A stretch of 64,000 nt of DNA. It comes from Dillenia suffruticosa (Eukaryota > Streptophyta > Magnoliopsida > Dilleniales > Dilleniaceae). The position numbers and the translations under genes were made by a program. This document shows positions 16,865 to 58,729 of this stretch, in pieces. A model generated the notes under the pieces. That model ran no database searches. It saw nothing but the letters and a program-made list of their open reading frames with translations, and had not been told where the DNA came from. Positions within the stretch are counted from its first letter, which is position 1. Each line of letters opens with the position of its first letter. Location: NCBI GenBank assembly GCA_033439265.1, contig JAVTVX010000004.1, positions 23,259,201 through 23,323,200 on the forward strand, read 5' to 3'.

Positions 16865-17166
16865 TGTTAGGATTAGAAAATTGAAGTGTGCAGAAAATGC
16901 TTGGTAGCTCAGGGGCTCTCTTTCATTACTAGCTCGAAAAGAGCATTACAATAGAATAAAAAAGAAGTAAAACGCAGTCTCTCTCTAAGAACAGACTGTC
17001 CACGCTTAGTTGAAGCTATTCATCTTTCTTCATACCCCTTCCCGTCTCTCACTCTATCTATTTATAGCCTAATTCTTATTCCAACTGCTCAAGATTCTCT
17101 AATCACAATTTGTTACCATCAACACCCTCTAACAAATTTATGTTCCTTACAGTTGCTTCCCTAACA
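16865..17166 (-). repeat. 3' LTR of the gag-only element
   Basis: A 302-bp long terminal repeat with TG...CA ends and a short terminal inverted repeat TGTTAG/CTAACA. It aligns end to end with 18599-19136 once the nested SINE there is excluded. It is on the 3' side because gag is read on the minus strand. Confidence 0.88.
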
Positions 17167-18524
17167 TTGCCCCATGCTGAAATTTCAGCCTTGTCCTCAA
17201 AATTGTAGCCTGAACATTGGCCCTTACAAACTAGAAGGTCTAGTCGAGTTGCATCTTTTTTTTTTTTTTTGTTCCTCCCTCCCAGCGGACCAGTACCTGT
17301 TCTCTCTCTAATGAATGTTTGGATGATGTTGGTAATCTTCCGCAGTCGCGTCGTCTCTAGCGGTTTATCGGTCGAAGGAGTTTCGTCATTACCCAAAATG
17401 ATTGTACGAAGACTCTTGTTGGGATAGTTGTGAAGAGGGTGGTAGGGTTGTTTGCACTCGAAATATAAACCTTTGGAGCGTAAGTCCATGATTTAATGGT
17501 GAGACAGTTGGCGGAAGGTTCGGTTGGGTGTTGCGTGTGGTTGCATAGATCGTTGTGCTTGAAGGTTGGTTGGGGTTGAAGGTGGGTTAAAAGAAAATTG
17601 GGTTTGGGTATATGGTTTCGGGTTAAAGTGGGTGTTGGAGCCCCCAATGGCCGGGTTGGACCCGCCCCATTTCAGTGACCCGAGTGGTGTATGGGTTTCG
17701 TCCTGTTTACCCGGTAGTGTCCTTGCCTTAAAAAACCCATTTTCTCTCTCGATTTTCCGAGCTAGCTTCATGGTCTAGAAGAGAGATAGAACCTCGTGTG
17801 AACGGATTCTTACTCGGATTTCATCGTTGAGGCCGTTCAGGAAAAGCCCTAGATGAATCGAAGAGCTCAACCCTTTGACAAGTGCAGCTCTGGTCACAAA
17901 CTCGTCGATGTAAGCATCCACAGTTCCCGTTTGCTTTGTAGATACCAGAGCTTCAAGGGATTGGCCGATGAATTGCCCCCCAAAGTGATCAAAAAGCTCG
18001 TAAGTTAAGTCCGACCAAGGGATCGATTGATTTTGAGCGAATAACCATTGAACCCAATGAAGTGCTGGTCCATCCATGGAGACCATCGCCATCGCTACTT
18101 TCATTTCATCACTGACACGATTGATAGTGAAAAATTGTTCGGCGCGAGCAACCAATGCTGCAGGGTCGTGACCATCGAAGCAGGGAAGATCAAGTCGTCG
18201 TAAGGCAAGTTGAAAGTCGTTATGCGTAGGAACTTTGAACGAATGTGGAGGTTGAGGCTGAGCTCCCAGAATGGGAATGGAGCCAATTTTGAGAGAAGGG
18301 CTGCCTTGAACCTCATTGAGAACTGATGTCGAAAACCCCGCTACATCGCGTCCCTCATTTTTTTGACAGAGTAGAGCCGCAACTAGTTCCTCTAAGGATT
18401 GCAGACGGTCCAATATTGAGCGATGGTAGGTCATCTCCTCTATCAAAGTCGTGATGCTCTTCCCTATGTCGGCGATGCTCTTCTCTAAGGTATCCAATTT
18501 TGTTTCTATTCGCGTTTGAGTCAT
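17103..18524 (-). pseudogene. Broken retrotransposon gag gene
   Basis: On the minus strand an intact stretch of 249 codons (18524-17775) starts with a coiled-coil-like segment and continues into a Ty3/gypsy-type gag core, with LDLPCFDGHDPAALVARAEQ, WVQWLF and a DLTYELFDHFGGQF block. Downstream the reading frame is lost. Pieces continue in other frames at 17771-17493 (Pro/Asn-rich linker) and 17489-17103. The last piece contains a degraded zinc knuckle: LYFECKQPYHPLHNYPNKS still aligns to a CCHC pattern but lacks the third Cys. It is a capsid-type protein in origin and is no longer functional. Confidence 0.82.
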
Positions 18525-18598
18525 GAATAGTTTTTAAGATACAGAGAGAAAAGAATTGAGAAAAAGATACAGAGATATGAGCAGGGGAAGAGAATGGT

Positions 18599-19136
18599 TG
18601 TTAGGAGTAGAAAATTGAAGTGTGCAGAAAATGTTTGGTAGTTCAGGGGCTTCCTTTCTTTTTTTTTTTGGTACCATATTTTGGACACTGCCCGATATCT
18701 GGGGTTTCGTTTCGATTAATTCATGAACGACCACTGTAATAGCTCCTTTCAGAAGGCGGGTCTCCTAACGGGAAACGTTCCATACAAATGAGGGCACAAT
18801 ACTCTCAACGGGAGTCGAATTTCGGTCATGATTAAGGAAACTCAACTCTACATTCAGTTGAGTCAATCCACGTTGGTTCATGGGCTTCCTTTCATTACTA
18901 GTTTGAAAAGAGCATTATAATAGAATAAAAAAGAAGTAAAACCCAGTCTCTCTCTAAGAGCAGACTGTCCACGCTTAGTTAAAGCTATTCATCTTTCTTT
19001 ATACCCCTTCCCGTCTCTCAAACTGTCTATTTATAACCTAATTCCCATCCTAACTACTCAAAATTCTCTAACCACAATTTATTATCCTCTAATACCTTCT
19101 AACAGATTTATACTCTTTGCGGTTACTTCCCTAATA
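18599..19136 (-). repeat. 5' LTR of the gag-only element, split by a SINE
   Basis: This copy matches 16865-17166 apart from an insertion at 18659-18893. Removing the SINE and one copy of its 12-bp target duplication leaves 303 bp. Its terminal CTAATA differs from the CTAACA of the other LTR. Confidence 0.87.
18659..18881 (-). mobile_element. SINE nested in LTR, with 12-bp target duplication
   Basis: The 223-bp insert is flanked by perfect copies of GGGCTTCCTTTC (18647-18658 and 18882-18893). On the minus strand it begins with a tRNA-like head containing a box-B-like word ATTCGACTCCCG and ends in poly-A (poly-T on the plus strand at 18659-18668). The tail region carries ATTAATCGAAACGAAA and a GATATCGGGCAG-like word, shared with the other SINEs in the window. 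Confidence 0.85.
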
Positions 19137-27870: not shown

Positions 27871-30650
27871 TGTCACGCCCCGAATCGGGATCGTGAACAG
27901 CCGCCCGTTGTTCCCTGGATGCCGGCTGTATTTTTACAGAAAATCGGATAGAACCTCCCCAAAAATCGGAGGTTTCCATGTACAATTTCACCTGTATATG
28001 ACATTCATCCTGTAAAAATAAATAATTGGCCATCCCGACCTCTCCAAAATCAACAGATATCACAGCCAATATCCAGAACAACGCAAGGCTATAAAGTTCC
28101 TAGCAGTCTTAGCAACAGACCTCTACTGTCATGCCCAACTAAAGCATGAGCAGCCGCCACACCGAGCGGACTTAAATTCTACGCATATATAAAATAAATT
28201 CCCAAGTTATTTTTAAATATTTACAAATGCCTCAATGCAATGAAATAAATCAATACGAAAGTTTTACGAATAAAAGTTCATAATTTATACAGTCATCTCA
28301 AAAATTTAGATAAATGGAATGGTCAAACTAAAATCTCCAATACATAACAATATCACCAATCATCGTAGCGGAAGAGATGGAAAATATCCATACCCAAACC
28401 CAGTGGTATCTTCTCGATCCAACACTAATCCTGTGGGAAAGAAAGTGGGGTGAGTATCTATGGGAGGATACTCAGTAAGTGAGAGGATTGACACCATACT
28501 ATCAATATCGAGGGTGAACTTGGAGTGTCAAAACATAAGATAAGAAAATATCCATAGTGTGCAAACCGATCATATTATTTCAAAATCATATATAATACGC
28601 ACATATCAGAAATCAAGATATGCATCCCAAAATTTTACATCAATGTCATGAAGAGCCGTCCAATGAAATATTCCCGGCAATGGTCTACCTCGACCAAGAA
28701 CGGCGCATTGGGGGTTTTTTCAAATGCAAGTATTAAAGAATGACTCTCTGCCCCAATGTTGGCCACAGACTACCCCAACTAGCCTGTAAATAATAATAAT
28801 GTACATATAACTAGACAGCCGTGTATGGTGCCCCCGCCTGGTGCTAGACGGAGCCGTACTCAACGTCCTCTCCGATGAGGGTCAACCTGGGGCACCCATA
28901 CACACGACGATCTGGCGGATACCTCCAGCCGAAACGTATCCGGACACAAGGGGTGCCTCTACCAGATGTCCTTCGTAGCTACGGATCACAATATCAAATC
29001 GGCCGGGCACGTAGCCCCATGCATCCCATCACCAGTCGGCCGGGCATATAGCCCCATGCATAATATCATAACGTCGGCCGGGCATACAGCCCAAAACATA
29101 ATATCATAAAGTCGGCCGGGCATACAGCCCAAAACATAATATCATAAAATCGGCCGGGCATACAGCCCAAATGTGTAAGTAAATCCATTTAAAACCATGT
29201 GCCAATGCAGTGAAAGCATTAAAACATATCAATATGTCGAAAATGTAGCACAATATACGTTTATCAAAACTCATGGATGCATATCAATAAGGTCAGCAGT
29301 TAAGACACTCCAAAGGTCACAAAACATTTCATCAAATATTGGAAAGTCATAACAATCATACATTTTGCAGAAACATGTCATTTAAAAGATATTTTTGAAA
29401 TATGGTTTTCAATCAATAGCGAATGTCAAAGTCCCACTCACCGTTCTGGGGAGGGTGGTCACTCCCTATTTTCAAAACTAATCAAATCTGATCTGCTTCC
29501 TCGAGTCTCTAAAAAGATCAACCTAATCAGATCATCAAAATTGAATATCATTTTCTCAAGCATTTTTGGGGTTTATCCGAAAGACATGAAATGTATAATA
29601 TCCTCCACTTTACGGCTCATTTCAATCCAACCCTACAACCCAGATACTTTCATGCATATTTCCAAAGTTTAACTCTAAAGAAACTATTCGAATTCACTCG
29701 ACATGATTTTGTGATTCTATAATACGCTTCTTTCGTATCAGATCATTCAATTTCTATAACATTCTATACTTAACTTTCAAAGTCACATATAATCATTTCA
29801 GAAATTGTATTCTATTCGCATTCCACTTACACTCTAAACATATACAAAACCTTTCATCTTAGATTCAATCCTAGATTCATCCAATTTATCAATTAAAGCC
29901 GAAATCTCCTCACCTAGGGTTTTCTCGAAGCGCCGAGTCTCGTCCGAAAGTCGCTTCGGTCACTCCAAAGTCTGTAGGGTTTCCTATCAAAATAAGGTTT
30001 ATTTGTTAGATCTAAACACATAGATCCGAAGCAAAACCCTAAGTCATTTACCTGCGTGGAGATTCGTGGGCTGTCACGGGCTCGTGGGCCATGGGCCGGA
30101 CTGGGCTCGTGGGCTATAGCTAGCGGGCTCGCTGGTCTGCGGGCCAGCGGGGGGCCGATGGGCCGGTGGGCCTGCAGCTGATGGGCCTGCGGGCTGATAG
30201 TGGCTCGCGGGTTGGTGCTCGCCCGTGTGCTGGCACGCGCCCGTGCGCTGCGCTGGCTCGCGCGCGCTCGCGCGTTGCTGCGTGCCCCTGCGCGCTCTGC
30301 TCGCGCGCTCTGCTCGCGTGCCTGCTCGCTCGCGCGCTCCTGCGCTCCTGCGCTCCTGCGCTCGCGCTATGCGCTGGGGGATCGCGCTGCAGAAGGCACT
30401 GCAGTCGCGCGCTATGGCGGAAGAAGATGCTCGCGGAGGCTCGTGGCGGTGTGCGGCGAGGCGTAGAGAGAGCGATCGTCGGAGATCGCGAGAGGGAGAG
30501 AAGACAGAGTGAGGTAGAGAGAGAAACCGAGAGGGAAGAAGAAAAAGAAGGAGAAGAAGAAGAATGGCGGCGGCGGCGGCGGTGGCTGTGGCGGAGGAAG
30601 CCGAACGGCCGCGGGAGAAGACGAACGGCCGCAGGAGAGGGAACGTCGAG

Positions 30651-42553: not shown

Positions 42554-42586
42554 CTAGGAGGTGTACACCGCGCGCTGCGCGGTGTA
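42554..42586 (-). repeat. Helitron 3' terminus (hairpin + CTAG/T)
   Basis: On the minus strand a hairpin with 10-bp arms (TACACCGCGC / GCGCGGTGTA, 3-base loop; 42564-42586) is followed by a few bases and CTAG (42557-42554). The next host base is T. A GC-rich hairpin shortly before CTRR, inserted before T, defines Helitron 3' ends. Confidence 0.75.
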
Positions 42587-43109
42587 GTGTTTTGATTTTG
42601 ACTACAAATTGAGGGGAATTGCCCGGTGTGATTTAGTAAAATTCACATTAATTTCAATTTTGATTTTGGCTGCAAATTGATGGACTAAATTTTATAAAAC
42701 TTCTGAATGACAACCCACCAATATCATATGATAAGAATTTTTTAAATTTTACTAATTATAAAACCTTTTAAAATATAAATTTTAGTATTAATATTTTAAT
42801 ATATTAAATATTAATACTTCAGGTTTTAAAATAAAATATTATATATTGTAAATATTTAATTCTTATAATATTAATATTTTTTAGTATTAATACTAATTTG
42901 TAATATTAAAAATTAGTATTTAATAATTTATATATTAAATATTAAATATTTTTTGTATATATTCAAATTGTTGATTACTTGTAATATTAAATCAAAATTA
43001 AAAATTTTATAAAATATTAAATTGAATATTAAATTACCATGGTAGTTCTGATTAAATAATAATCTGATTAAAAAATTTTATGATTGTATTTAAAATATCT
43101 AAAATATTT

Positions 43110-43630
43110 GTAATGCGTTCATCTAAAATTTTATGCGTTCATTGAGCTACACAATCATGCCCTAAAACCAACAGCGTAGACGATCACATCCAACCAAAGG
43201 TATAAGAAAAAATTTGGCAAAAAATCAAGTACAGAAACAGTAAGAGTTACGGACATTAATTATCATTTTCAAGAAAAACTCATCAAATTATGAAAGAATT
43301 TACAAAAAACAACAACTCAACATAGGAGTGTGGACTCAATTTGTATTCTTTCTCTGAAAAAGGGATGCAGGCATACATAACAAAAGCAAAAGCCAGAGTC
43401 AATGTGACAACTGAATTTCTCAGGTAAAGTACAAAGAAAATATCTATCTATTGTGAGATCAATATAACATCACAGAGAGAAACTTACTTCTAAGAGTTGC
43501 ATGTTTATTGGAGTGGATATTGTATACATCTTCCAAAACATTATTTCAAATATCCATAATATATTCTCTTGGGACACCTCCACAATTTAGAAAAGCAATC
43601 AGGTGCGATGAGATAATTTGTTAAATATTA
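43110..43630. other. Non-repetitive segment inside the Helitron-like region
   Basis: About 500 bases with markedly higher GC and complexity than the surrounding AT repeats, and no copy elsewhere in the window. It interrupts the module that otherwise continues as in the second copy near 46270. No protein family was recognised on either strand. Its character fits captured host sequence, but that is inference. Confidence 0.4.
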
Positions 43631-43965
43631 TGGAAGTTATAATTTCTCCTAAATTAATTTAAATATTAAAATATTTTTTAGAATTAAAAATAATTTCAAA
43701 CGTGAAATATTTAAATATTAATATTTAGATATTTAAGATCTTAATATAAATTTAAATTGTCGTATAAAATATAAAAATATTAAACAATAAATCAAAACAA
43801 ATTGATAAGTATTTTTATGTAATTTAAAACTATATAAAAATAAAAATATTTAGATATTTAGTTTTAATACTTGGATATTTATTTAATATTAAATATATTA
43901 TATTAAAATGAGAAAAATATTTGTATAATTTTATATTTATATATATTTAAATATAAGTTCTGCTA

Positions 43966-44163
43966 CGTAGGAAAACTTCAAAGTTCTACTATGTAGCAAA
44001 ACTACATAGTTCTGTTAAATAACAGAACTATAAAGATTTGCTATAGTTCTGCTACATAGCAGAACTATGAAGTTCCGTTATAGTTCTGTTACTTAACAGA
44101 ACTATATAGTTCTGCGAAGTAGTAGAACTACAATGTTCTGCTAAGTAGCAGATTTCTAAGTTT
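43966..44163. repeat. Small AGAAC/GTTCT palindrome cluster
   Basis: About 200 bases with alternating GTTCTGCTACATAGCAGAAC-type palindromes. Units are loosely similar to each other and to the large arrays at 48.5 and 50.95 kb, and look like an older, unamplified form. Confidence 0.85.
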
Positions 44164-45075
44164 CGTGCGTTCGTCAATAAATTTTTTTTTTAGAAGTAAA
44201 ATTTTGTAAAACTTTTGGATGACAATCCATTAGGCTTATATAGTAAGAAATTTTTAAATTTTTTGTAATTTTAATTTTGCTTTTATTTGTTATTTTTCAG
44301 CTAAAGTTTGGGTATCAATGAAAATAAATTTTTAATCTTATGAAATTTAAGTTGGCTTTTTAAATTTTCTTAAATGTCATTTAAAAAAAATCTGAAAGTT
44401 TGTCAAATAAAAAAGATTTCTTTTGTTTTAAATAAAATATGTCTATCCATACAAAAAAATATGAAACAATAATTAAATTTTTAATAGTTTGTGTATAAAT
44501 AACAGACTAATTAGAAATGAAATTTTTAATTTTAGCTGCACCTCTTACATCTTCTAAAATATTATTTTAAGACCACCAACTAAAATCAAAAAATTTTGTT
44601 TACTTTAATAAAATATAATATAATATGTATAACGTTAGCAGAACCACAACAGAACTATATTGTCCTGCTCAGCAAAAGTATGTTGTTCTGGTACATAGCA
44701 GAACTTCATAACTTTCTGCATTATTTGATGAATTTTTTTTAGGGGCTAAATTTTGTGAAGCTTTAGGATGACAACCCACTCGGCTCATATAATAAGAAAA
44801 TTTTTAATTTTTTGTGATTTTAAGTTTGCCATTATTTTTTATTTTTCAATTTAAGTTTGTATATGAATAGAGATAAATTTTTAATTTTATGAAATTTTAA
44901 TTTGCTTTTTAAATTTTCTCAAATGTCATTTTTAAAAAATCTAAAAGTTTGTCAAAAAAAATCTTTCTTTTGTTTTAAATATCATTTATTTCAAATATTT
45001 TTGATATTTTTAATATAATCATAAATTTTTTTTATCTAAAAATAAAAATAAAGATTTGAAAAAAATGATATAAAT

Positions 45076-45232
45076 TCTGCGCAGCACAGAACCACATCGT
45101 TCTGTATTGGGCAGAACCATGGTTCTGCACTGTCACAGAACCACATGGTTTTGTCCAGTGCAGAACGATGTGGTTGTGCACTGCGCAAAACCATCGCAGA
45201 ACCACCTCGTTCTGCATTTTGTGGTTCTGCGC
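45076..45232. repeat. AGAACCACATGGTTCT cluster with GC-rich linkers
   Basis: Irregular copies of AGAACCA...TGGTTCT linked by TGCACTG/CAGTGCA-type words instead of GCTACATAGC. It is a second variant of the same palindromic theme, and similar to short clusters at about 52613-52710, 53363-53560 and 54925-55032. Confidence 0.8.
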
Positions 45233-45726
45233 TATATTAAGTCCAATTTCGGTAATTTTGTATAATTACATATGCACTTATAGCTCTGCATTTATATTAA
45301 CAACACATCACCTAACACTTGAAAAAAATATTTTTTTGATATAAAGATACTTTCCAATATTTTTTTATTTAATATTTTATAATTATAATTTTTATAGCAT
45401 TATAATATCATAGTATTTTGACTGTTCATGTGTTTCAAAACATGAGATAATAAACGTAGATATTAAACCCTAAATTAAATATTATTTATGTCCAAAAAAG
45501 CAGAATAGCTCTGCAATTTGCAGAACTACCTTTACTCTTCCAAATAAAACATATATTTAAATATAACATTATACAAATATTTTTTCCATTTTACTATAAT
45601 ATATTTAATACATAACAAATTTAATATTAAATAAATATCTAAATAATTAAATTAAAAGTTTTATTCTTACATAATTTTAAATTAGATAAAAATATTTATA
45701 AACTCACTTAAATTAAATTATTGAAT

Positions 45727-46268
45727 GACCGCGCGGTATAGTGTTTTGATTCTGACTACAAATTGAGGGGAGTTATCCAGTGTGGTTTAGTAAAATTCGC
45801 ATTAATTTCAATTTTGATTTTGGCTGCAAACTGAGATGCTAAATTTTATAAAACTTCTGAATGGCAACCCACCAATATTATATGATAAGAATTTTTTAAA
45901 TTTTAGTAATTATAAAACCTTTTAAAATATAAATTTTAGTATTAATATTTTAATATATTAAATATTAATACTTCAGGTTTTAAAATAAAATATTACATAT
46001 TGTAAATATTTAATTCTTATAATATTAATATTTTTTAGTATTAATACTAATTTGTAATATTAAAAATTAGTATTTAATAATTTATATATTAAATATAAAT
46101 ATTTTTTGTATATATTCAAATTGTTGATTATTTGTAATATTAAATAAAAAATAAAAATTATATAAAATATTAAATTGAATACTAAATTACCATGGTAGTT
46201 CTGATTAAATAATAATCTGATTAAAAAATTTTATGATTGTATTTAAAATATTTAAAATATTTGTAATG
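45727..46268 (-). repeat. Second copy of the Helitron 3' subterminal region
   Basis: The stretch aligns with 42575-43113, starting at the inner half of the hairpin (GCGCGG) and continuing through the same AT-rich words. The outer hairpin arm and CTAG are missing. It is either a truncated second Helitron or an internal duplication. Confidence 0.85.
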
Positions 46269-46449
46269 CGTTCATCGACGAAATTTTTTTTTATGAGGGA
46301 CTAAATTTTATAAAGTTTCTGAATGACAACCCACGAAGATCAAATAATATGAATTATTTACATTTTGCTAATTGTAAAACCTTTTAATATATAAATTTTA
46401 GCATTAATATTTTAAAATTAAATATATTTATTTAAAATATTTAAATAAA

Positions 46450-47080
46450 AATATTTAAATATTTAATTTAAATACATAGATATTTATTTAAAATTAAATA
46501 AATTATATATTAAAAAATCATATCCGAAAAAAAAATTATCTGTATAATGTTATATTTAAATGACATAATTATTTTTTAGTGTTTGTATATTCCTTGTTTT
46601 TTTTATTTTTTGGGTCTTTTTTTTCTATATAGAGGGAGGCGTGACAAAAGATAGCCTGTAGTGTACGTGGTGTGCGTGCTTTATATTAAAAATTATATAT
46701 TTAATCTGTTAATTTTTATTCTTATACAGTTTCAAATGATAAAAATATTTATAAGTCTATTTAAATAAAAATATTAATAATATTATTTTGGTTCATCATT
46801 TAATATTTTCACATTTCATGTTATAATTTCATATTTTATTTAAATAAATATCAAATATCCAAATAAATTATTTTTAATATTATAAAAAATTGAATATTGG
46901 AATAATAAGGTGGTACGTAGAATCACAAGGTTCTGATACGCAGAACGATATGGTTATGCTATTATTCCCTGCCAAAAAGCAAAACCTTTTTAATCTTCCA
47001 AAATATTATTATTATTTTAAAAATACCCGAAAACATATTTTTTATTTTGTTTATGGTTGTGATGGTGTAAATTTTTGAGA
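46450..47080. repeat. Direct repeat, copy 1 (AT-rich, GGGAGGCGTGAC marker)
   Basis: It shares its order of words with 47812-48510: an AT-rich stretch, then CTATATAGAGGGAGGCGTGA, ACAAAAGATAG, then a long AT block ending in AAGGTGGTACG and an AGAAC cluster. The copies lie about 1.36 kb apart. Confidence 0.82.
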
Positions 47081-47811
47081 AATCACATCTAAATGATTTA
47101 AAAAAGTTTAAATTCGATTTGTTTCTATAAAATAAATATAGTTTTTCTTTTTTATAAATATTAAATCTTTTCAAAAAAAGTGAAAGATTATTAAAAACCA
47201 TAATATGGTAGATATTTTTATAATTATAATTTTTATAGATTGCATTTTTAGGTTAGCTAATATTTAAATATTTATCTAATATTAAACATTCTAAATTTAA
47301 ATGAAAAAGACATGGACATAACATGTATAACATTAATATTGGTGTGAAATAAAAAAGACATAAATATTAATTTGAAATCATAATATTTAGTAATTTAAGT
47401 CTAAAAAATACATAAATATTAATATTTAATTTAAGGTTTGTAAAGTATAAAAATACAAAAAATAATTTAGTTATTTAAAGATTTCATATAATAAATCAAA
47501 TATTCTTTTGGTAGGCATTACATATGAATTCGTGTCGATCAATTTATATATAAGTTATCTAATTTTATAAATTTTACCTATAGTTAACTATGGAGTTTTT
47601 AAATTATAGTTTTGATCTTTTAAAGAATTATTGTCTATATAAAATTTTTACTCTAGTAGTTTGAATTTTTGTCTAACTAAAAGTTTTTAAAATTGGAATT
47701 TCAAATAAAATGTTAATCGTAATATAAAATATAAAAATATTAATAAAAAACACAAAACTAAAACTTATAAATATAAATATGCAATTTAAAATTTTATAAG
47801 AATAAAAAATT

Positions 47812-48510
47812 TAAATATTTAATTTAAATATGCATATATTTATTTAAAATTAAATAAATTAGATATTAAATAAATTATATCTGAAAAAAAATTATCTATA
47901 TAATGTTATGCAATATTATGTCTAAACGACATAATTGTTTTTGGGTGCTTATATATTCATTTTTTTTTATTTTTTGGGTCTTTCTTTCTATATAGAGGGA
48001 GGCGTGACAAAAGATAGCTTATAGTGTGCATGGTGTGCATGCTCTATATTAAAAATATATATTTAATTTTTTAATTTTTATTCTTATAAATTTTAAATGA
48101 TAAAAATATTTATACGTTTATTTAAATAAAAATATTAATAATGTTGGTTTTGTTTATCATTTAATATTTTCATATTTCATATTATAATTTTATATTTTAT
48201 TTAAATAAATATCAAATATCTAAATAAATTATTTTTAATATTAAAAAAATTGAATATTTGAATAACAAGGTGGTACGCAGAACGAGATTGTTCAGCTATG
48301 CAGTGCCACATGATTCTGCTATCCAGAGTCTCATGGTTATGCTATGCAGAACGACATGGTTCTGCTATACAGAATTTCATGATTCTGCTATTTTTTAATC
48401 TCTCAAAATATTATTATTATTTTTAAAACACCCGAAAATATTTTTCTTTATTTTGTTTAGGGTTGTGATAGTATAAATTTTTTAGAAACCACATTTAAAT
48501 GATTTCAAAA
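47812..48510. repeat. Direct repeat, copy 2, leading into the main palindrome array
   Basis: The counterpart of 46450-47080. Its terminal AGAAC cluster (about 48275-48400) is longer, with variants such as GTTCTGCTATACAGAA. The large array follows directly after about 115 bases. Confidence 0.82.
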
Positions 48511-48514
48511 ATAT

Positions 48515-49888
48515 AACCATGTAATTCCGCTACATAGCAGAATCATGTAGTTCCGCTACATAGCAGAACCATGTGGTTCCGCTACTTAGAACCATGTGGT
48601 TCCGCTACTTAGCAGAACCATGTGGTTCCGCTACTTAGAACCATGTGGTTCCGATACTTAGCAGAACCATGTGGTTCCGCTACTTAGAACCATGTGGTTC
48701 CGTTAGCAGAACCATGTGGTTCCGTTAGCAGAACCATGTGGTTCCGCTACTTAGCAGAACCATGTGGCAGAACCATGTGGTTCCGCTACCTAGCAGAACC
48801 ATGTGGCAGAACCATGTGGTTCCGCTACCTAGCAGAACCATGTGGTTCCGCTACCTAGCAGAACCATGTGGTTCCGCTACCTAGCAGAACCATGTGGTTC
48901 CGCTACCTAGCAGAACCATGTGGTTCCGCTACCAGAACCAAGCAGAACCATGTGGTTCCGCTAGCAGAACCATGTGGAACCATGTGGTTCCGCTACCTAG
49001 CAGAACCATGTGGTTCCGCTACCTAGCAGAACCATGTGGTTCCGCTAGCAGAACCATGTGGAACCATGTGGTTCCGCTAGCAGAACCATGTGGTTCCGCT
49101 ACCTAGCAGAACCATGTGGTTCCGCTACCTAGCAGAACCATGTGGTTCCGCTAGCAGAACCATGTGGAACCATGTGGTTCCGCTAGCAGAACCATGTGGT
49201 TCCGCTACCTAGCAGAACCATGTGGTTCCGCTACCTAGCAGAACCATGTGGTTCCGCTACCTAGCAGAACCATGTGGAACCATGTGGTTCCGCTACCTAG
49301 CAGAACCATGTGGTTCCGCTACCTAGCAGAACCATGTGGTTCCGCTAGCAGAACCATGTGGAACCATGTGGTTCCGCTAGCAGAACCATGTGGTTCCGCT
49401 ACCTAGCAGAACCATGTGGCTCCGCTACCTAGCAGAACCATGTGGTTCCGCTAGCAGAACCATGTGGAACCATGTGGTTCCGCTACCTAGCAGAACCATG
49501 TGGTTCCGCTAGCAGAACCATGTGGAACCATGTGGTTCCGCTACGTAGCAGAACCATGTGGTTCCGCTACCTAGCAGAACCATGTGGAACCATGTGGTTC
49601 CGCTAGCAGAACCATGTGGAACCATGTGGTTCCGCTAGCAGAACCATGTGGTTCCGCTACCTAGCAGAACCATGTGGTTCCGCTAGCAGAACCATGTGGA
49701 ACCATGTGGTTCCGCTAGCAGAACCATGTGGTTCCGCTAGCAGAACCATGGTTCCGCTACATAGCAGAACCATGTGGTTCCGCTACATAGCAAAACCATG
49801 TAGTTCCGCTAAACCATGTCGTTCCGCTACATAGCAGAACCATATAGTTCCGCTACATAGCAGAACTTCGTTGTTCTACTTAGCAAAA
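48515..49888. repeat. 26-bp double-palindrome minisatellite array (main)
   Basis: About 1.37 kb built from two alternating palindromes: GCTAC(A/C/T)TAGC (10 bp) and AGAACCATGTGGTTCC (16 bp). Many central units are contracted to GCTAGC between the 16-bp parts, or have AACCATGTGG doubled. Composite units of these types recur as a higher-order repeat. The central linker is CTACCTAG, while the outer units use CTACATAG and ATGTAG. GC content is about half, against roughly one fifth in the flanks. No ORF of interest was seen, because the linker supplies TAG stops. Confidence 0.97.
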
Positions 49889-49889
49889 G

Positions 49890-50900
49890 TATGTTGTTCT
49901 GTTACATAGCAAAATTTCATAGCTCTCTGCATTATTTGATAATTTTTTTTCAGGGGCTAAATTTTGTCAATATTTAGGATGACAACCCAGTCGGCTCATA
50001 TAATAAGAATTTTTTTAATTTTTTGTGATTTTAATTTTGCCTTTATTTTTTATTTTTCAATTTAAGTTTGTATATGAATAGAAATAAGTTTTTAATCTTA
50101 TGACATTTTAATTGATTTTTTAAATTTTCTCAAATGTCATTTTTAAAAAATCTGAAAGTTTGTCAAAAAAAAATCTTTCTTTTGTTTTAAATATCATTTA
50201 TTTCGAATATTTTTTATATTTTTAATATAATTATAAAATTTTTTATTTTAAAAATGAAAAGAACGATTTTCAAATATTTTTTAACTTAATATTTTTATAA
50301 TTATAATTTTTATAAATTGTAATTCTACCATACACATTTTTTAAATATTTAAAGATTCATTTAACATTAAATATATTAAATTAAAATGAAAAACATATCA
50401 TTATAATATTAATATCTTTGTAAAATTAAAAAAATATAAACATTAATTTGCAATTATAATATTTAATAATTTAAGTTGAAAAAATGTTTGAATTTTTTTG
50501 TTGAAAAAATACAATGTTTTTTTTATGCAAAAAGTGATTGCATCTGGGTTCGAACATGAGACGCACTTTAATGACATTCTTGTAATAATACAATCATGCG
50601 GAACTATTTTTGAATATACATATCTATAGAACTATTTTTCTTTTTAGCAAAACTACTTCCTTTCCTATCAGAACCATTTTTTTTAATGGCATTACAGAAC
50701 TTTTTTTTTTGTAACAGAACTACTTTTTTTGTTTGAACATACCTAACCACAAAAAGACAGAACTGCTTTTTTTTAACATACCTAACTACAGAACTACAGG
50801 ATTACTTTTTTTTTAGCATAGCAATTTTTTTTTAAAATATTTATATTTAGAAATTTAAAATTTGAATATAAATTTAAATTGCAGTATAAAATGTAAAATT
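49890..50900. repeat. About 1-kb direct repeat, copy 1
   Basis: Aligns with about 51430-52380: the end of a palindrome array, the GGGGCTAAATTTTGT module, an AT-rich block, then GATTGCATCTGGGTTCGAAC (near 50538) and the start of AGAACT/poly-T units. Confidence 0.88.
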
Positions 50901-50952
50901 ATTAAACAATAAATCAAAACAAACTGATAAAATGTGAAATATTCATTTAGGG

Positions 50953-51450
50953 GAACTACATCGCAGAACCATGTAGTTCTGCTACATAGCAGAACCATGT
51001 AGTTCCGCTACCACATAGCAGAACCATGTAGTTCCGCTACTTAGCAGAACCATGTACTTCCGCTACCACATAGCAGAACCATGTAGTTCCGCTACTTAGC
51101 AGAACCATGTAATTCCGCTACCATATAGCAGAACCATGTAGTTCCGCTACATAGCTAAACCATGTAGTTCCGCTAAACCATGTAGTTCCGCTAAACCATG
51201 TAGTTCCGTTAAACCATGTAGTTCCGCTACATAGCAGAACCATGTAGTTCCGCTACATAGCAGAACCATGTAGTTCCGCTACTACATAGCAGAATCATGT
51301 AGTTCCGCTAACAGAACCATGTAATTCCGCTATATAGCAGAACCATGTAGTTCCGTTAAACCATGTAGTTCCGCTAAACCATGTAGTTCCGCTACATAGC
51401 AGAATTACGTTGTTCTGCTTAGCAAAAGTATGTTGTTCTGCTACATAGCA
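50953..51450. repeat. 26-bp double-palindrome minisatellite array (second)
   Basis: About 500 bp with the same two palindromes, but in the CTACATAGC / AGAACCATGTAGTTCC form and with irregular deletions such as GCTAAACCATGTAG. The 16-bp part here has a shorter perfect stem than the TGTGG form of the main array. Confidence 0.95.
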
Positions 51451-52380
51451 AAATTTCATAGCTCTCTGCATTATTTGATAAATTTTTTTTTTAGGGGCTA
51501 AATTTTGTGAAGATTTAGGATGACAATGCAGTCGGCTCATATAATAAGAATTTTTTTAATTTTTTGTGATTTTAATTTTGCCTTCATTTTTTATTTTTCA
51601 ATTTAAGTTTGTATATGAATAGAAATAAGTTTTTAATCTTATGAAATTTTAATTGATTTTTTAAATTTTCTCAAATGTCATTTTAAAAAAATCTGAAAGT
51701 TTGTCAAAAAAAAATCTTTCTTTTGTTTTAAATATCATTTATTTCGAATATTTTTTATATTTTTAATATAATCATAAAATTTTTTATTTTAAAAACGAAA
51801 AGAAAGATTTTCAAATATTTTTTAACTTAATATTTTTATAATTATAATTTTTATAAATTGTAATTCTACCATACACATTTTTTAAATATTTAAATATTCA
51901 TTTAACATTAAATATATTAAATTAAAATGAAAAACATATCATTATAATATTAATATCTTTGTAAAATTAAAAAAATATAAACATTAATTTGCAATTTTAA
52001 TATTTAATAATTTAAGTTAAAAAAATGTAAAAAAATTTTTGTTGACAAAATACAATGTTTTTTTAATGCAAAAAGTGATTGCATCTGGATTCGAACATGA
52101 GACGCACTTTGATGACATTCTTGTAATAATACAATCATGCGGAACTACTTTTGAATATACATATCTATAGAACTACTTTTCTTTTTAGCAAAATTACTTC
52201 TTTCCTATCACAACCATTTTTTTTAATGGCATTACAGAACTTTTTTTTGTAACAGAACTACTTTTTTTGTTTGAACATACCTAACCACAAAAAGACAGAA
52301 CTGCTTTTTTTTTAACATACCTAACTACAGAACTACAGGATTACTTTTTTTTTAGCGTAGCAATTTTTTTTTTGTTTATA
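51430..52380. repeat. About 1-kb direct repeat, copy 2
   Basis: The second copy of 49890-50900, shifted by about 1.54 kb and very similar by eye. Together with the arrays before each copy it makes a tandem duplication of [array + module + spacer]. Confidence 0.88.
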
Positions 52381-54925
52381 CCCAACCACATAACTATTTT
52401 TTTTTTAGCAAAACTACTTTTTTTTAGCAGAACAATGTAGTTCTACACGATGCAGAACTATTTTTGTAGCATAACTATTTTAATGGCATTACAAAACTAT
52501 TTTTTTAAGAAGAACTACTTTATTTTTTTTTAATATACCTAACTACAGAACTTTTTTTTTGAACATACCTAACTACGGAACCATTTTTTTTTAGCAGAAA
52601 AATTTTTGTTCTGCGCGGCGTAGAACCATGTCATTCTGCATTCGGCAGAACCATATTGTTCTGTGCGGTGCAGTACCATGTTGTTTTGTGCAACGTAGAA
52701 TCATATGGTTCTTTTAGCAGAACTACTATTGAATAATTTGTTTTTAGAAAAACTATTGTCTTTTTTTTAATGGCATTACAGAACTATATTTTTTTGAAGT
52801 AGAACTACCTTTTTTTTTCCTGAATATACCAAACCGCAGAACCACTTTTTTTTTAGTAGAATACTTTTTTTTTACCGCATTACAGAACTACTTTTTTTTT
52901 TAACATATCTAACTACAAAGCATAGAACTACTCTTTTTTTTAACATAGCTAACTACAGAACTACAGAATTACTTTTTTTTTAACAGAACTAAATTTTTTT
53001 AAAACATAGTTGACAACGTATCTAACTACAGAACCACATAAGTACTTATTTTTTTTTAACATAGCAAACTACATAGCTATTCTTTTTTAACAGAACCATT
53101 TTTTTTAATGTTGGTACAAAACTACTTTTTTTGAACAAACCTAATCACAGAACTTATTTTTTCTTCCAAAACTACTTTTGAACTATTTTTTTAGCAGATT
53201 TTTTTTTTCAATGGCAATATATAATTACTTTTTTTTAGCAGACTACTTTTTTTTTTAATGGCATAACAGAATTATTTTTTTTAGCAGAATGACTTTATTT
53301 TTTTTAACACACTTAACTATGGAACTATTTTGTTTTTTAGCAAAACTACTTTTTTTTAGAAGAACAATGTAGTTCTGCACAGTGCAGAATCACATGGTTC
53401 TTTTAGCAGAACTATTCTGAACCACCTTTTTTTTAGTAAAACTATTTTTTTAGCAGAACAATGCAGAACCATGTTGTTCTACACCAGGCAGAACCACATG
53501 GTTCTGCGTGGTGCAGAACCATGCCGTTTTGTGCCGTGCAGAAGCACATGGTTCTTTTAGTAAAAGTACTTTTGAATAAATTTTTTTAGCAGAACTATTT
53601 TCTTTTTTTTTAATGGCATTACATAACTACTTTTTTTTGTTGCAGAACTACATTTTTTTTAACGTACTTAATTACAGAACTACTTTTTTTTTTTAGATAA
53701 TTTTTTTAACGGTATCACAAAACCCCTTTTTTTTTCGTATTAGTTCTACTTTTTTTTTGAATATATCTAATCACAAAACCACAGAACTACATTTTTTTTT
53801 AAATACCTAACAACAGAACTATAGAACTACTTTTTTTTAATAGAACTATTTTTTTAAAAACATAGCCGACAGCATATCTAACAACAGAACTACAAAATTT
53901 TTTTTTTAACATACCAAACTACATAACTATTCTTTTTTAACAGAACAATTTTTTTTTAAAGGCGGTACAAAACTCCTTTTTTTGAACATACCTATCTACA
54001 GAACCTATTTTTTCTTGCAGAACTACTTTTGAACTATTTTTTTTAGTAGAACTATTTTTTTAATGGGATTACAGAACTATTTTTTTTGTAGCAGAAGTCT
54101 TTTTTTTTCGAATATAGTTAACTACAGAACTATTTTTTTTAGTAGACTACTTTTTTTTTAATGGCATAACATAAACATTTTTTTAGCAGAACTACTTTAA
54201 TTTTTTTTTTAACATACCTAACCACAAAACTTTTTTTTTTACATACCTAATGGAAGAACTATTTTTTTTTTAGCAAAACTACCTTTTTTTAGCATAACAA
54301 TGTAGTTCTGCACGGTGCAGAACCATATCGTTTTGTCTTTTAGTAAAACTATCTTGAACTTTTTTTTTAGCAGAACAATTTTTTTTTAGTAGCATTACAA
54401 ACTACTTTTTTTTGTTGTAGAATTACCCTTGTTTTTAAACATACCAAACTACAGAACTATTCTTTTTTTTAACGGCATTACAGAACTACTTTTTTTTCAT
54501 ATCAAACCTACTTTTTTTTTCAACATATCTAACTACAAAACTACAAAACTACTCTTTTTTTTTAACATACAGAACCACAGAACCACAGAACTACATTTTT
54601 TAAGAGAACTATTTTTTTTAAAACATAGCCAATAATATATCTAACTACAGAACTACAGAAATATTTTTTCTAACGTACCAAACTATATAACTATTATTTT
54701 TTAACAGAACCACTTCTTTTTAATGGTATTACAAAACTACTTTTCTTGAACATACCTAGCTACAAAATTTATTTTTTCTTGCAGAACTACTTTTGAACAA
54801 TTTTTTTTGTAGAACAATTTTTTTAATGGCATTACAGAACTACATTTTTTTGTAGCAAAACTACTTTTTGTTTTTAACATTCCTAACCAAAAATCTTTTT
54901 TTTTTTAGCAAAACTACTTTTTTTA
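52140..54925. repeat. Diffuse array of AGAACTAC words spaced by poly-T
   Basis: For about 2.8 kb the plus strand alternates (A/C)AGAACTA(C) or AGCAGAACTA with T runs of 6-10 bases and AACATACCTAACTACAGAAC-type words. Spacing is roughly 20-45 bases and irregular. It begins inside repeat copy 2, and a shorter form lies at about 50590-50830. The AGAAC half-site is that of the palindromic arrays, but the facing GTTCT is mostly missing. Confidence 0.85.
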
Positions 54926-55032
54926 GCAGAACCATGTCATTCTGTGTGGCGCAGAACCATGTCATTCTGTGCGGAGCAGAACCATGTCATTCTGCACAGA
55001 GCAGAACCATGTCGTTCTATACTGGGCAGAAC
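54925..55032. repeat. AGCAGAACCATGTCATTCTG tandem cluster
   Basis: Four units of about 25-30 bases (AGAACCATGTCATTCTG and variants) separated by GTGTGGCGC-, GTGCGG- and CACAGAG-type linkers. It is a third linker variant of the same family. Confidence 0.85.
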
Positions 55033-55517
55033 CAAATCCATCAAAAAAAAATTCCAGACTTTAAACGCTATTATTAAAAAAAAATGTACTTCTGCAACTC
55101 CTTATAGTTGTTCTGCAAAATCAATAGCTTTGAAGTATCAATTGTAAATCCACTTATATATTATAACACACAAAGATCCATGACATATGTAGAAACCAAA
55201 CGATAACGGTGGCCTGTATAGAAAACAATATAAAGAAAAACTATACAAAGAGCAACCAAACAAGTTTTTAACAAAGCAACCAAACAAACTATGGAGTTCT
55301 GTAGACCCAAGGCTCACGATTGCAGAACAACCGAGTGAAGCTATTGCAGAACTGAAAGTGCTATTACAGAACTATCGTAAACCCAGAACTACAGAGTAAA
55401 GTTATTATAGAAATGAGTTTTTACAGAACTATTACAGAATCACTAAAGTGCTATTACAGAAAGAACCATCGGCAGAACTACAGAACTGGGCTATTGCAGA
55501 ACCAACAAAGTGTAATT

Positions 55518-56110
55518 GCAGAAGAAAAGACAAAAACAAACCATCACAACAAAGAAGAATAACTTCCATAATCAGTACTTGAAGCTAAACGGCTCCATTC
55601 CCCCCACCCAGAAAGGTAAACCTTCAAAAGGAAACACAAAAACAAACCATTATAACAGAGAAGAGAAGAATAACTTTCATAACGCATCCCAAAACTGGGA
55701 AAATAAACACAAACCTTGAACACAGAGGGGAAATATATTCGGCACACTCGGAAACACAGCAAGAGAAAACCCAGTGACCATCGTCATCAACACCAAAAAG
55801 AGGATATAAAAAAGAAACGGAAAAAATCCCAAACCGAACGTCTCCATTCCTCCTACCTAGAGAGACAAACCTTTAAAAGGAAAGATAAAGACAAACCATC
55901 ACAATAGAGAAGAGAATAATAACTTTCAAAATGCATCCAAAAATAAGAAAAATAAACACAAACCTTGAACACAGAGGGTAAATATATTCGGCACAGTCAG
56001 AAACACAACAAGAGAAAACCTCAGTGGTTATCTTCATCAGCGCCAAACAGCGGATATAAAAAAGAAGCCGAACCTGAAACCGAACGTCTCCATCTGCCCC
56101 ATTGAGAGAG
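55518..56110. repeat. About 250-bp tandem repeat, 2.4 copies
   Basis: Units start near 55518 (shortened by an internal deletion), 55611 and 55860. They share AAACAAACC(A)T(C/T)A, ATAACTTTCA, AAACACAAACCTTGAACACA, TATATTCGGCACA and end in CGTCTCCAT near 55840 and 56090. Complexity and GC are higher than in the AT repeats. No protein was recognised. Confidence 0.8.
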
Positions 56111-56599
56111 AGAGCGAGAAACAGATAAAGAGAGCACCGTCATACTTTTATGCAGAGAAGAAGAAGAGAAGAGATAACAAAGGAAGATACAAAAAGCATA
56201 GAGGGATGGCCTCATATACTTTTTTTCCCCTCAAAAGTACAGAAGTCTAATCGCAATGAGTACCAAAAGAATGACCTTACATACTTTTTTTTCCTAACCA
56301 CTCTGTGCACGTCTTCCGTGAAATCAATAACAAAATCTACTTCATTAATGTTTCTGACAAGAGAGAAAGAAAGAGAGAAACCACAAGGAAAAGACCAAAA
56401 GAAGACAGGAAAAAAAACCAAAAAAGAAAAAAAGAAAAACGGGCCACATCAGCTCCACATCAGCTCTACCTCACCAACGACCAATCACCCTACGCCAATT
56501 GGAGGACGACGAAATCCAGGTGGCAAGGGGTCTTTCACGCTTATATCTATATTGTTAAAGAAAATGTTTTCTGACTTTTTTCCGTAATGCATCTCATCT

Positions 56600-57952: not shown

Positions 57953-58729
57953 ATGGCTGAGCGAGTCTATCCTTCAGCCAAGTCCAACGGCACCGCCGCC
58001 GCTACCACCGCGACCGCCACCGCCAACGGTACCGCAACTTTTCCAGCGGCGAAGTCTCAGTTCTACCGTCCGGCATACCGTCCTCAGCCGCCTCCTAGCC
58101 GCCGTTACCGTCGGAACTGCTTCTGCCGGTGCTGTCTCTGCACTTCTCTTATCGTCCTATTCCTCCTCCTCATAATTGGCATCGCGGGAGTTATATTCTA
58201 CGTAATCTATCGTCCTCACCGACCTGATTTCTCTGTCTCGAATCTTCAGATTTCTCAGTTCAATCTCTCTTCGTCTTCTTCGCAATTGAACACGAGTTTT
58301 AATCTCACCATCTCTGCTTACAATCCCAACAAGAAGATCGTCTTCTTCTACAACCCGATCTCCGTTTCCGTCTTCGCTGACGGAATCTCCGTTGGCAACG
58401 GTAATTTTCCCGCGTTCACTCATTCTCCGAAGAACACGACGGTTTTGAGGAGTGTGATTTCGAGTAAAGGACAGAGCTTAGATTCGAGCTCTGCTTCGAC
58501 TCTGAAATCAGATCTGAAAACGAAAAACGGTTTACCTTTGAAGATTCAGTTGGAGACCAAAGCGAAAGCAAAGATCGGAGCCGTGAAAACGACGAAGGTC
58601 GGAATTAGGGTTACGTGCGACGGAATTCACGCCAGTGCCCCAACCGGAAAGTCACCGGCGACGGCGTCGAAGGATAATATGAAGTGCAGTGTCGATCTCC
58701 GAGTCAAGGTCTGGAAATGGACCTTTTGA
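57953..58729 (+). CDS. NHL13: NDR1/HIN1-like protein, NHL13 type
   Basis: A 258-residue, intronless, plasma-membrane-anchored protein of the NHL (LEA-2 domain) family, which includes defence-related NDR1. The N-terminus is Ala/Thr-rich, then Tyr/Pro-rich (QFYRPAYRPQPPP), then basic and Cys-rich (RRYRRNCFCRCCLC). A single membrane span lies at about 61-86, followed by RPHRPDFSV. The extracellular LEA-2 domain shows FNLTISAYNPNKKI (the NPN motif at 124-126) and ends VKVWKWTF. The start MAERVYPSAK and the KVWKW(S/T)F end resemble Arabidopsis At2g27080/At5g21130 as remembered. No break was seen. The exact NHL number is less sure than the family. Confidence 0.92.
   Translation: MAERVYPSAKSNGTAAATTATATANGTATFPAAKSQFYRPAYRPQPPPSRRYRRNCFCRCCLCTSLIVLFLLLIIGIAGVIFYVIYRPHRPDFSVSNLQISQFNLSSSSSQLNTSFNLTISAYNPNKKIVFFYNPISVSVFADGISVGNGNFPAFTHSPKNTTVLRSVISSKGQSLDSSSASTLKSDLKTKNGLPLKIQLETKAKAKIGAVKTTKVGIRVTCDGIHASAPTGKSPATASKDNMKCSVDLRVKVWKWTF

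Follow-up and report, generated by a model that had tools for sequence, protein, structure and literature searches.

A two-palindrome minisatellite inside a single-motif, probably Helitron-associated block in Dillenia suffruticosa

Results

The locus and its neighbouring genes

The window analysed in this study is a 64,000-bp stretch of the Dillenia suffruticosa genome (assembly GCA_033439265.1, contig JAVTVX010000004.1, positions 23,259,201 to 23,323,200 of the forward strand), and all coordinates below are positions within it. It contains a non-coding block of 11.6 kb (43955-55520) which holds 121 of the 122 copies of the motif RCAGAACYAY in the window, 110 of them on the plus strand and 11 on the minus strand. 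To the left of the block are a Sec7-domain gene, which we take to be GNOM-like, and fragments of kinase, Sey1 and GMC oxidoreductase genes, and to the right is an LEA_2 (NDR1/HIN1-like) gene at 57953, for which the top match among the best 120 of 275 matches was from Dillenia turbinata (92% and 88%). Directly right of the motif block there is also a 250-bp tandem duplication (55588-56093, 83%), the minus strand of which looks, as judged by eye, like a promoter and first exon pointing left into the block. Far to the left, a retrotransposon gag-like ORF on the minus strand (17778-18533; Pfam Retrotrans_gag, 1.2e-08) is flanked by direct repeats of 87% identity (16909-17164 and 18878-19134), and the interval 16865-19134 is possibly a short LTR element carrying gag only.

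Structure and symmetry of array 1

The main minisatellite of the block, array 1 (48515-49911, plus strand), was parsed into 65 units by splitting it at chosen unit-start words, which gave 28 units of 26 bp, 17 of 22 bp, 11 of 10 bp, 4 of 23 bp, 2 of 13 bp, and one each of 25, 24 and 18 bp. Tandem Repeats Finder (TRF) called the array at 48515-49866, with periods of 26 and 58. Array 1 is thus a minisatellite in the usual sense, made of tandem units of about 10-60 bp with variant copies. Its interior (48566-49792) is characterized by units carrying TGTGG, with units that appear to be ancestral at the edges on either side.

When array 1 was aligned with its own reverse complement, 1004 of 1280 aligned bases matched with 234 gap columns, that is, 66% of all columns, in comparison to a mean of 32% and a maximum of 53% in 20 shuffles. 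The 26-bp unit has two dyad centres with common arms, in which each GCAGAAC serves one palindrome as its right arm and the following one as its left arm. It can pair with GTTCYGC on its left, over the CTA-TAG centre, or on its right, over the CATGTG centre. Because this arm is common to both palindromes, adjacent hairpins are mutually exclusive. The initial annotation had described an array which reads almost the same on both strands and in which every unit can form two small hairpins; the results showed a symmetry which is partial though above every shuffle, and two centres in the unit, but hairpins which compete for their arms. The alternation of the palindromes is moreover broken by the 10- and 13-bp units.

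The array was also compared with known sequences. Rfam gave no match at the gathering score over 42.0-58.0 kb, the unit pattern had no match in viral contigs, and a literature search for motif strings did not show AGAACCATGTGGTTC or AGAACCACATGGTTCTGC among the matches listed, the titles of which look unrelated.

Distribution of variants along the array

The variants of the unit are not distributed at random along array 1. CATA units (7 of 65) are found at the edges, with a mean edge distance of 2.43 units in comparison to 15.73, and none of 20,000 permutations was as low. CCTA units (19 of 65) are central (p 0.0003), 10-bp units (10 of 65) are slightly central (p 0.043), and units with the GCTAGC contraction (14 of 65) are weakly central (p 0.06), while the CTTA units are lopsided, six of the seven being units 3-10 on the left side. 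The motif CATGTGG occurs 56 times in array 1 and is absent from array 2, the sister array described below, whereas CATGTAG occurs 2 times in array 1 and 15 times in array 2. Nine units of array 1 are without TGTGG: the left edge has two of them and the right edge five, and the remaining two are deletion units in the interior (48935 and 49743).

The right edge of array 1 (49793-49911) can be aligned with that of array 2 (51358-51450), and its last units also with 44650-44720, so that by alignment they are recognisable in three related copies, at 44.65, 49.86 and 51.40 kb. Since these right-edge units are common to three copies and array 2 keeps TGTAG, the edge units are probably old and the interior derived.

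Inside array 1, the order from left to right is a CTTA zone (48566-48756) in which 23- and 26-bp units alternate in the parse as a 49-bp repeat, two 13+26 pairs, a run of 26-bp units, and then mixtures of 26-, 22- and 10-bp units (48945-49742) in which a 22+10 (32-bp) composite recurs. The multi-unit repeats are thus of 49, 39 and 32 bp, and exact repeats reach 159 bp, the longest spanning several units at 48961 and again at 49261, an offset of 300 bp. The 10-bp unit has a 22-bp unit before it 8 times out of 10 (p 0.0015). Unit similarity is nearly flat with distance (0.79 at lag 1, 0.84 at lag 5, 0.81 at lag 50); neighbouring units are no more alike than distant ones, which we counted, as we did the want of a significant higher-order repeat, against the reading proposed below.

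TRF, and inspection by eye, pointed to a regular higher-order repeat with a period near 106 bp, but a lag test did not bear this out (p 0.11). The longest string of units to recur, 7 in length, stood out from unit shuffles (p 0.026) but not from a first-order Markov null (p 0.34). Only composite multi-unit repeats are accordingly claimed for array 1, a strict higher-order repeat being not significant.

These results agree with the earlier proposals that variants are ordered along the array and that older units persist at its edges around a derived interior, the polarity being given by the three related right edges and by TGTAG in array 2. The proposed centre of TGTGG and contracted units stands for TGTGG, present in 56 of 65 units, and less so for the GCTAGC contraction. 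The picture of one variant spreading evenly outward from the middle does not agree with the data, as the interior holds several different multi-unit expansions. Overall, TRF and the unit-by-unit analysis confirmed the array and its edge pattern, but showed that the pattern is lopsided and that the array does not stand alone.

Array 2, flanks and macro-copies

Array 1 belongs both to a tandem macro-repeat and to the 11.6-kb block of a single motif. Its TGTAG sister, array 2 (50963-51450, plus strand; TRF and unit parse), is followed on the right by a flank, R2 (51451-52372), that is a near-copy of the right flank of array 1, R1 (49912-50833), with 96.6% identity (938 of 971 positions over 49863-50840 and 51400-52375). 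The array with its right flank is thus present twice in tandem. An older flank copy with an array remnant, R0 (44650-45057, plus strand), is 90% identical to both, with 368 and 370 of 408 positions for R1 and R2, respectively. If TGTAG was the state at the time of duplication, we infer that array 1 was repopulated with TGTGG units while the flanks diverged by about 3%.

In addition, a short module is found in seven copies of the same orientation (42677, 44180, 44733, 45832, 46294, 49943 and 51480), a count that leaves out weaker AT-rich matches elsewhere, and the arrays and the 42.5-kb end therefore have material in common. The segment adjoining this end (42577-43132, minus strand) is duplicated with 95% identity at 45731-46287, also on the minus strand and inside the motif block, where it is without the CTAG end. 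Each copy of the segment also has, on the minus strand, one GTAGTTCTG (43042 and 46195), which closely resembles the block motif.

The RCAGAACYAY motif

The 122 copies of RCAGAACYAY in the whole window (110 on the plus strand, 12 on the minus strand) compare with an expectation of 0.74, and CAGAAC occurs 78 times outside arrays 1 and 2, in comparison to 1.2 expected. There are 189 AGAAC sites in total, and around the 123 of them which lie outside the arrays most of the information at positions beyond the five selected letters AGAAC falls at -2, -1 and +5 to +7, and T is preferred to a smaller degree at +12 and +13.

By reading, the surroundings of the motif are of at least four kinds, namely the 26-bp arrays, 25-bp mini-arrays, a T-rich macro-tandem, and a series spaced by 20 bp. 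The T-rich macro-tandem (52401-54925) carries 33 motifs on the plus and 3 on the minus strand, mostly in a non-palindromic context; a 25-bp mini-array (54926-55040) carries 4 copies on the plus strand; and at 55320-55520, plus strand, the core appears in a further context as CTATTR-CAGAAC with a spacing of about 20 bp.

The diverged copies of the T-rich tandem were aligned. Motif bases were identical at 270 of 318 positions in the longest alignment, in comparison to a base-matched expectation of 232.6, and at 1604 of 1962 positions over 14 overlapping alignments, in comparison to 1287 expected. As a whole word, CAGAAC survived in 46 of 91 cases in the two longest alignments without masking, a rank of 7 among 65 words, behind T-rich words and TATCTA. 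Since aligners anchor on common words, the word was masked before alignment of two copy pairs, and CAGAAC then kept 362 of 504, a ratio of 1.11 that was the highest of 20 words, the other 19 ranging from 0.67 to 1.07 (nearest AACATA with 1.07 and TACCTA with 1.02). The conservation excess of CAGAAC thus appears modest, as a ratio to which no significance test is attached.

The interval 34.0-57.6 kb has 28 ORFs of 75 aa or more; all were scanned with Pfam and none reached the cut-off, and thus no transposon protein domain was found among them. The scores below the cut-off (SWIRM, MatK_N, FANCE, Neil1-DNA_bind, SLC52, Latexin and DO-GTPase1) were taken as chance.

A Helitron-type end and other termini

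Both strands of the 64 kb were scanned for a GC-rich hairpin before CTRR-T, and one strong site was found, with its CTAG at 42554 on the minus strand (42554-42586). It consists of a 10-bp GC-rich stem with a 3-nt loop, then 6 nt, CTAG and a T, with the hairpin 10 bp from the terminus, and has in this way the CTRR end, the GC-rich hairpin 10-15 bp upstream and the host T of a Helitron 3' end. In maize, Helitrons are described as ending in CTAG beside a flanking T, with a palindrome of 16-20 bp placed 10-15 bp ahead of that end (PMC2267711). With a stem of at least 9, one site was observed in comparison to none in 100 dinucleotide shuffles, and with a stem of 7 the shuffle mean was 0.03. The second match of the first scan, at 53484, was rejected as one of the AGAAC palindromes.

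For the opposite end, which in a Helitron is TC after a host A, four plant Helitron 5' patterns were searched on the minus strand of 42.6-64 kb and gave 8 matches at 7 places, all inexact and none convincing; the one at 56174, just right of the block, is only CT-rich. RepHel was absent from the same 28 ORFs scanned with Pfam (34.0-57.6 kb, 75 aa or more). It is expected in autonomous Helitrons only, a non-autonomous element being without it.

Other kinds of termini were also considered. CACTA-type terminal inverted repeat (TIR) pairs with a 3-bp target site duplication (TSD) numbered 6 in the window, and 50 shuffles had 7.1 on average. One such pair (36945-61918, 10/13) encloses the block, but the LEA_2 gene as well. 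TIRs round the block (41.0-44.3 kb paired with 54.8-57.9 kb) were rejected, the best pair (14/16) being no better than in shuffled sequence. Weak AT-rich TIR pairs between the same intervals numbered 20, more than the 4-9 of five shuffles.

Hairpin strength and folding

With DNA parameters, the CATGTG-centre hairpin was predicted at -4.7 kcal/mol in the array 1 unit and -2.9 kcal/mol in the array 2 unit, and in modelled units the same hairpin had -7.2 kcal/mol with GTTCT and -8.5 kcal/mol in the GAACTA/TAGTTC form, for which the 44-kb remnants were the template. The other hairpin is weakened in the 22-bp unit, from -2.3 to -0.3 kcal/mol. Strands of six copies had predicted energies per nucleotide of -0.36 kcal/mol for the 22-bp unit, the best among the five units tried, -0.31 for the modelled ancestral unit, -0.29 for the 26-bp unit of array 1 and -0.17 for that of array 2. 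As single-stranded DNA, 300 nt of array 1 had -92.1 kcal/mol (z -13.96 in comparison to shuffles) and 300 nt of array 2 had -42.8 kcal/mol (z -6.09), the predicted best fold for array 1 being two long foldbacks and not a row of small hairpins.

The stem-breaking form GTTCC is found at 48 of 50 sites in array 1 and at 14 of 17 in array 2, and GTTCT is confined to edge units, at 49873 and 49896 in array 1 and at 50976, 51412 and 51435 in array 2. If the edges are ancestral, a stem-breaking change from T to C has thus spread through both arrays, and since GTTCC breaks the stem, the winning unit would form a weaker hairpin than the modelled older units. The initial annotation had held that TGTGG lengthens the stem and that the more hairpin-prone variant amplified. 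The first point is right in comparison to array 2, but leaves out the break made by GTTCC and the stronger modelled units with GTTCT; the second is favoured by the single-unit and six-copy energies relative to array 2 and opposed by the spread of the stem-breaking change. On these models, hairpin strength is a weakly supported explanation of the renewal of the interior, and the foldability of long strands, as the six-copy energies suggest, may have played a part.

Discussion

Proposed origin of the array

We propose that array 1 is an internal repeat of a transposon-derived, probably Helitron-associated block, that its units turn over by exchange or slippage, and that the block carries or once carried protein-binding sites, and we assign this reading a probability of about 0.5. 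The host block would be large, non-coding and much rearranged transposon DNA, its 3' end being the minus-strand site at 42554 and its body extending rightward. The array and its right flank would have been duplicated in tandem, after which unequal exchange or replication slippage in multi-unit steps may have renewed the interior of array 1 and spared the ancestral units of its edges; the composite patchwork of the interior is as expected of either process. RCAGAACYAY, with about 120 copies in differing contexts, would be what the array and the rest of the block have in common, its copies being putative targets of a DNA-binding protein with sequence specificity, which a transposon most plausibly encoded, and tandem expansion would have multiplied these putative sites in the manner of VANC target arrays. 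Evidence counted against this reading includes the want of a secure Helitron 5' end and of a transposon protein domain, the modest conservation excess, and the rank of CAGAAC as only 7th of 65 in the unmasked comparison. As no 5' end is secure, a single Helitron enclosing the entire block is our inference.

Comparison with known systems

The closest functional analogue appears to be the VANC arrays of VANDAL transposons, with CACTA subterminal repeats second. VANC21 binds YAGTATTAY, which is dense and of a single orientation in non-coding VANDAL21 DNA and often lies in fast-changing tandem repeats, and the targets of VANC6 carry other motifs, found also in an unrelated element (PMC5735166). 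A passage in another report describes VANC-target regions as rapidly diverging tandem repeats and non-coding VANDAL regions as targeted by RdDM (PMC10398659). The block resembles the VANC arrays of VANDAL21 and VANDAL6 in its short motif (10 bp here, 8-9 bp for VANC), which is dense and mostly of one orientation in non-coding tandem repeats. It differs in that its motif is neither YAGTATTAY nor AGTTGTCC/AGTTGTAC, and in that the end adjoining the block is of Helitron type, unlike VANDAL MULEs. The 28 ORFs scanned at 34.0-57.6 kb, each of 75 aa or more, gave no VANA, VANB or VANC domain. A non-autonomous VANDAL copy would be without these genes. Since the motif differs and no VAN gene was found in the block, the likeness to VANC arrays appears to be one of organisation, not of membership. 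Self-marking by dense arrays of target motifs has already been shown for Arabidopsis VANDALs, whose target DNA is bound and demethylated by a VANC protein.

With plant Helitrons the locus shares a GC-rich hairpin 3' end with CTAG then T, and a single 3' end beside tandem macro-copies; it is unlike them in having no secure 5' TC end and no RepHel, and in that the block belongs to one element only presumptively. Xiong et al. (2016) reportedly found plant arrays of truncated Helitrons, and in many of these several 5' ends accompany one 3' end. Internal tandem repeats are described as common in Helitron-type elements in a section of one source (PMC12628747). As for minisatellites as such, array 1 has the derived interior, older edge units and composite multi-unit repeats of those that evolve by unequal exchange and have degenerate edges, and is unlike the usual ones in that its unit is nearly dyad-symmetric about two centres.

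Alternative explanations

A plainer reading, which we regard as nearly as likely as the binding-site reading, is that the block is decayed tandem transposon DNA under no constraint, the word being an unbound relic of one AGAAC array and the turnover ordinary concerted evolution. The macro-copies at several scales, the one intact Helitron-type 3' end and the lack of protein domains in the ORFs scanned all suit such a repeat graveyard, as do the arrays of truncated plant Helitrons with a single 3' end which a passage in PMC12628747, summarising Xiong et al. 2016, describes, and repeated duplication from one ancestral AGAAC-containing array could, without selection, yield much of the motif count. 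It accounts less well for a word that stays constant while its flanks vary between contexts, for a conservation ratio which is the highest of the words compared, if by a small margin, and for a strand bias as strong as 110 to 11. At the other extreme, by analogy with VANC, a Helitron-type element might have used a long directional platform of RCAGAACYAY for its own sequence-specific protein, for anti-silencing or mobilisation in a different transposon class, with the palindromic minisatellites multiplying the sites; we consider this unlikely.

Two further explanations are less probable still. In hairpin-primed slippage, the variant with the longer stem would have been amplified by forming hairpins and have pushed older units to the edges, and this improbable account draws on the TGTGG units that fill the interior and lengthen the stem relative to array 2, on the six-copy energies of the 22-bp unit and of the 26-bp unit of array 1, and on a long-strand fold much further below shuffles (z -14.0) than that of array 2 (z -6.1). 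It has to contend with the stem-breaking GTTCC in both arrays and GTTCT kept in edge units only, with the stronger single GTTCT-type units in the models, with palindromes that make only short clusters elsewhere in the block, with a 22-bp unit almost devoid of its other hairpin, and with the 10- and 13-bp interruptions. The other, which we hold to be very improbable, is that of a CACTA (En/Spm-type) subterminal repeat region, in which the paired motifs would be putative sites of a TNPA-like protein. According to a passage in PMC2613891, one end of the soybean CACTA element Tgmt* carries 24 copies of a motif within 732 bp, able to form 12 palindromes, and the paired inverted motifs and potential rows of stem-loops of the present arrays resemble these. 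However, the CACTA-type termini are not above the shuffle mean, the enclosing pair takes in the LEA_2 gene, the best general TIR pair only equals the shuffled best, the block is more than 10 times as long as the published subterminal region, and its motifs are mostly one-directional.

A comparable array beside a Helitron end in a plant unrelated to Arabidopsis, as this block may be, would suggest a wider origin of self-tagging. If the block is neutral, it would still serve as a test case for whether hairpin strength predicts the winning repeat variant, given that a stem-breaking change spread here. In either case the sister arrays, with flanks 96.6% identical, make the pace and step size of minisatellite turnover measurable. 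TRF also reported two other tandem repeats in the window, a separate 38-bp minisatellite of about 4 copies at 28999-29171 and a repeat with a 59-bp period at 1881-2061 (3.1 copies, 92% matches).
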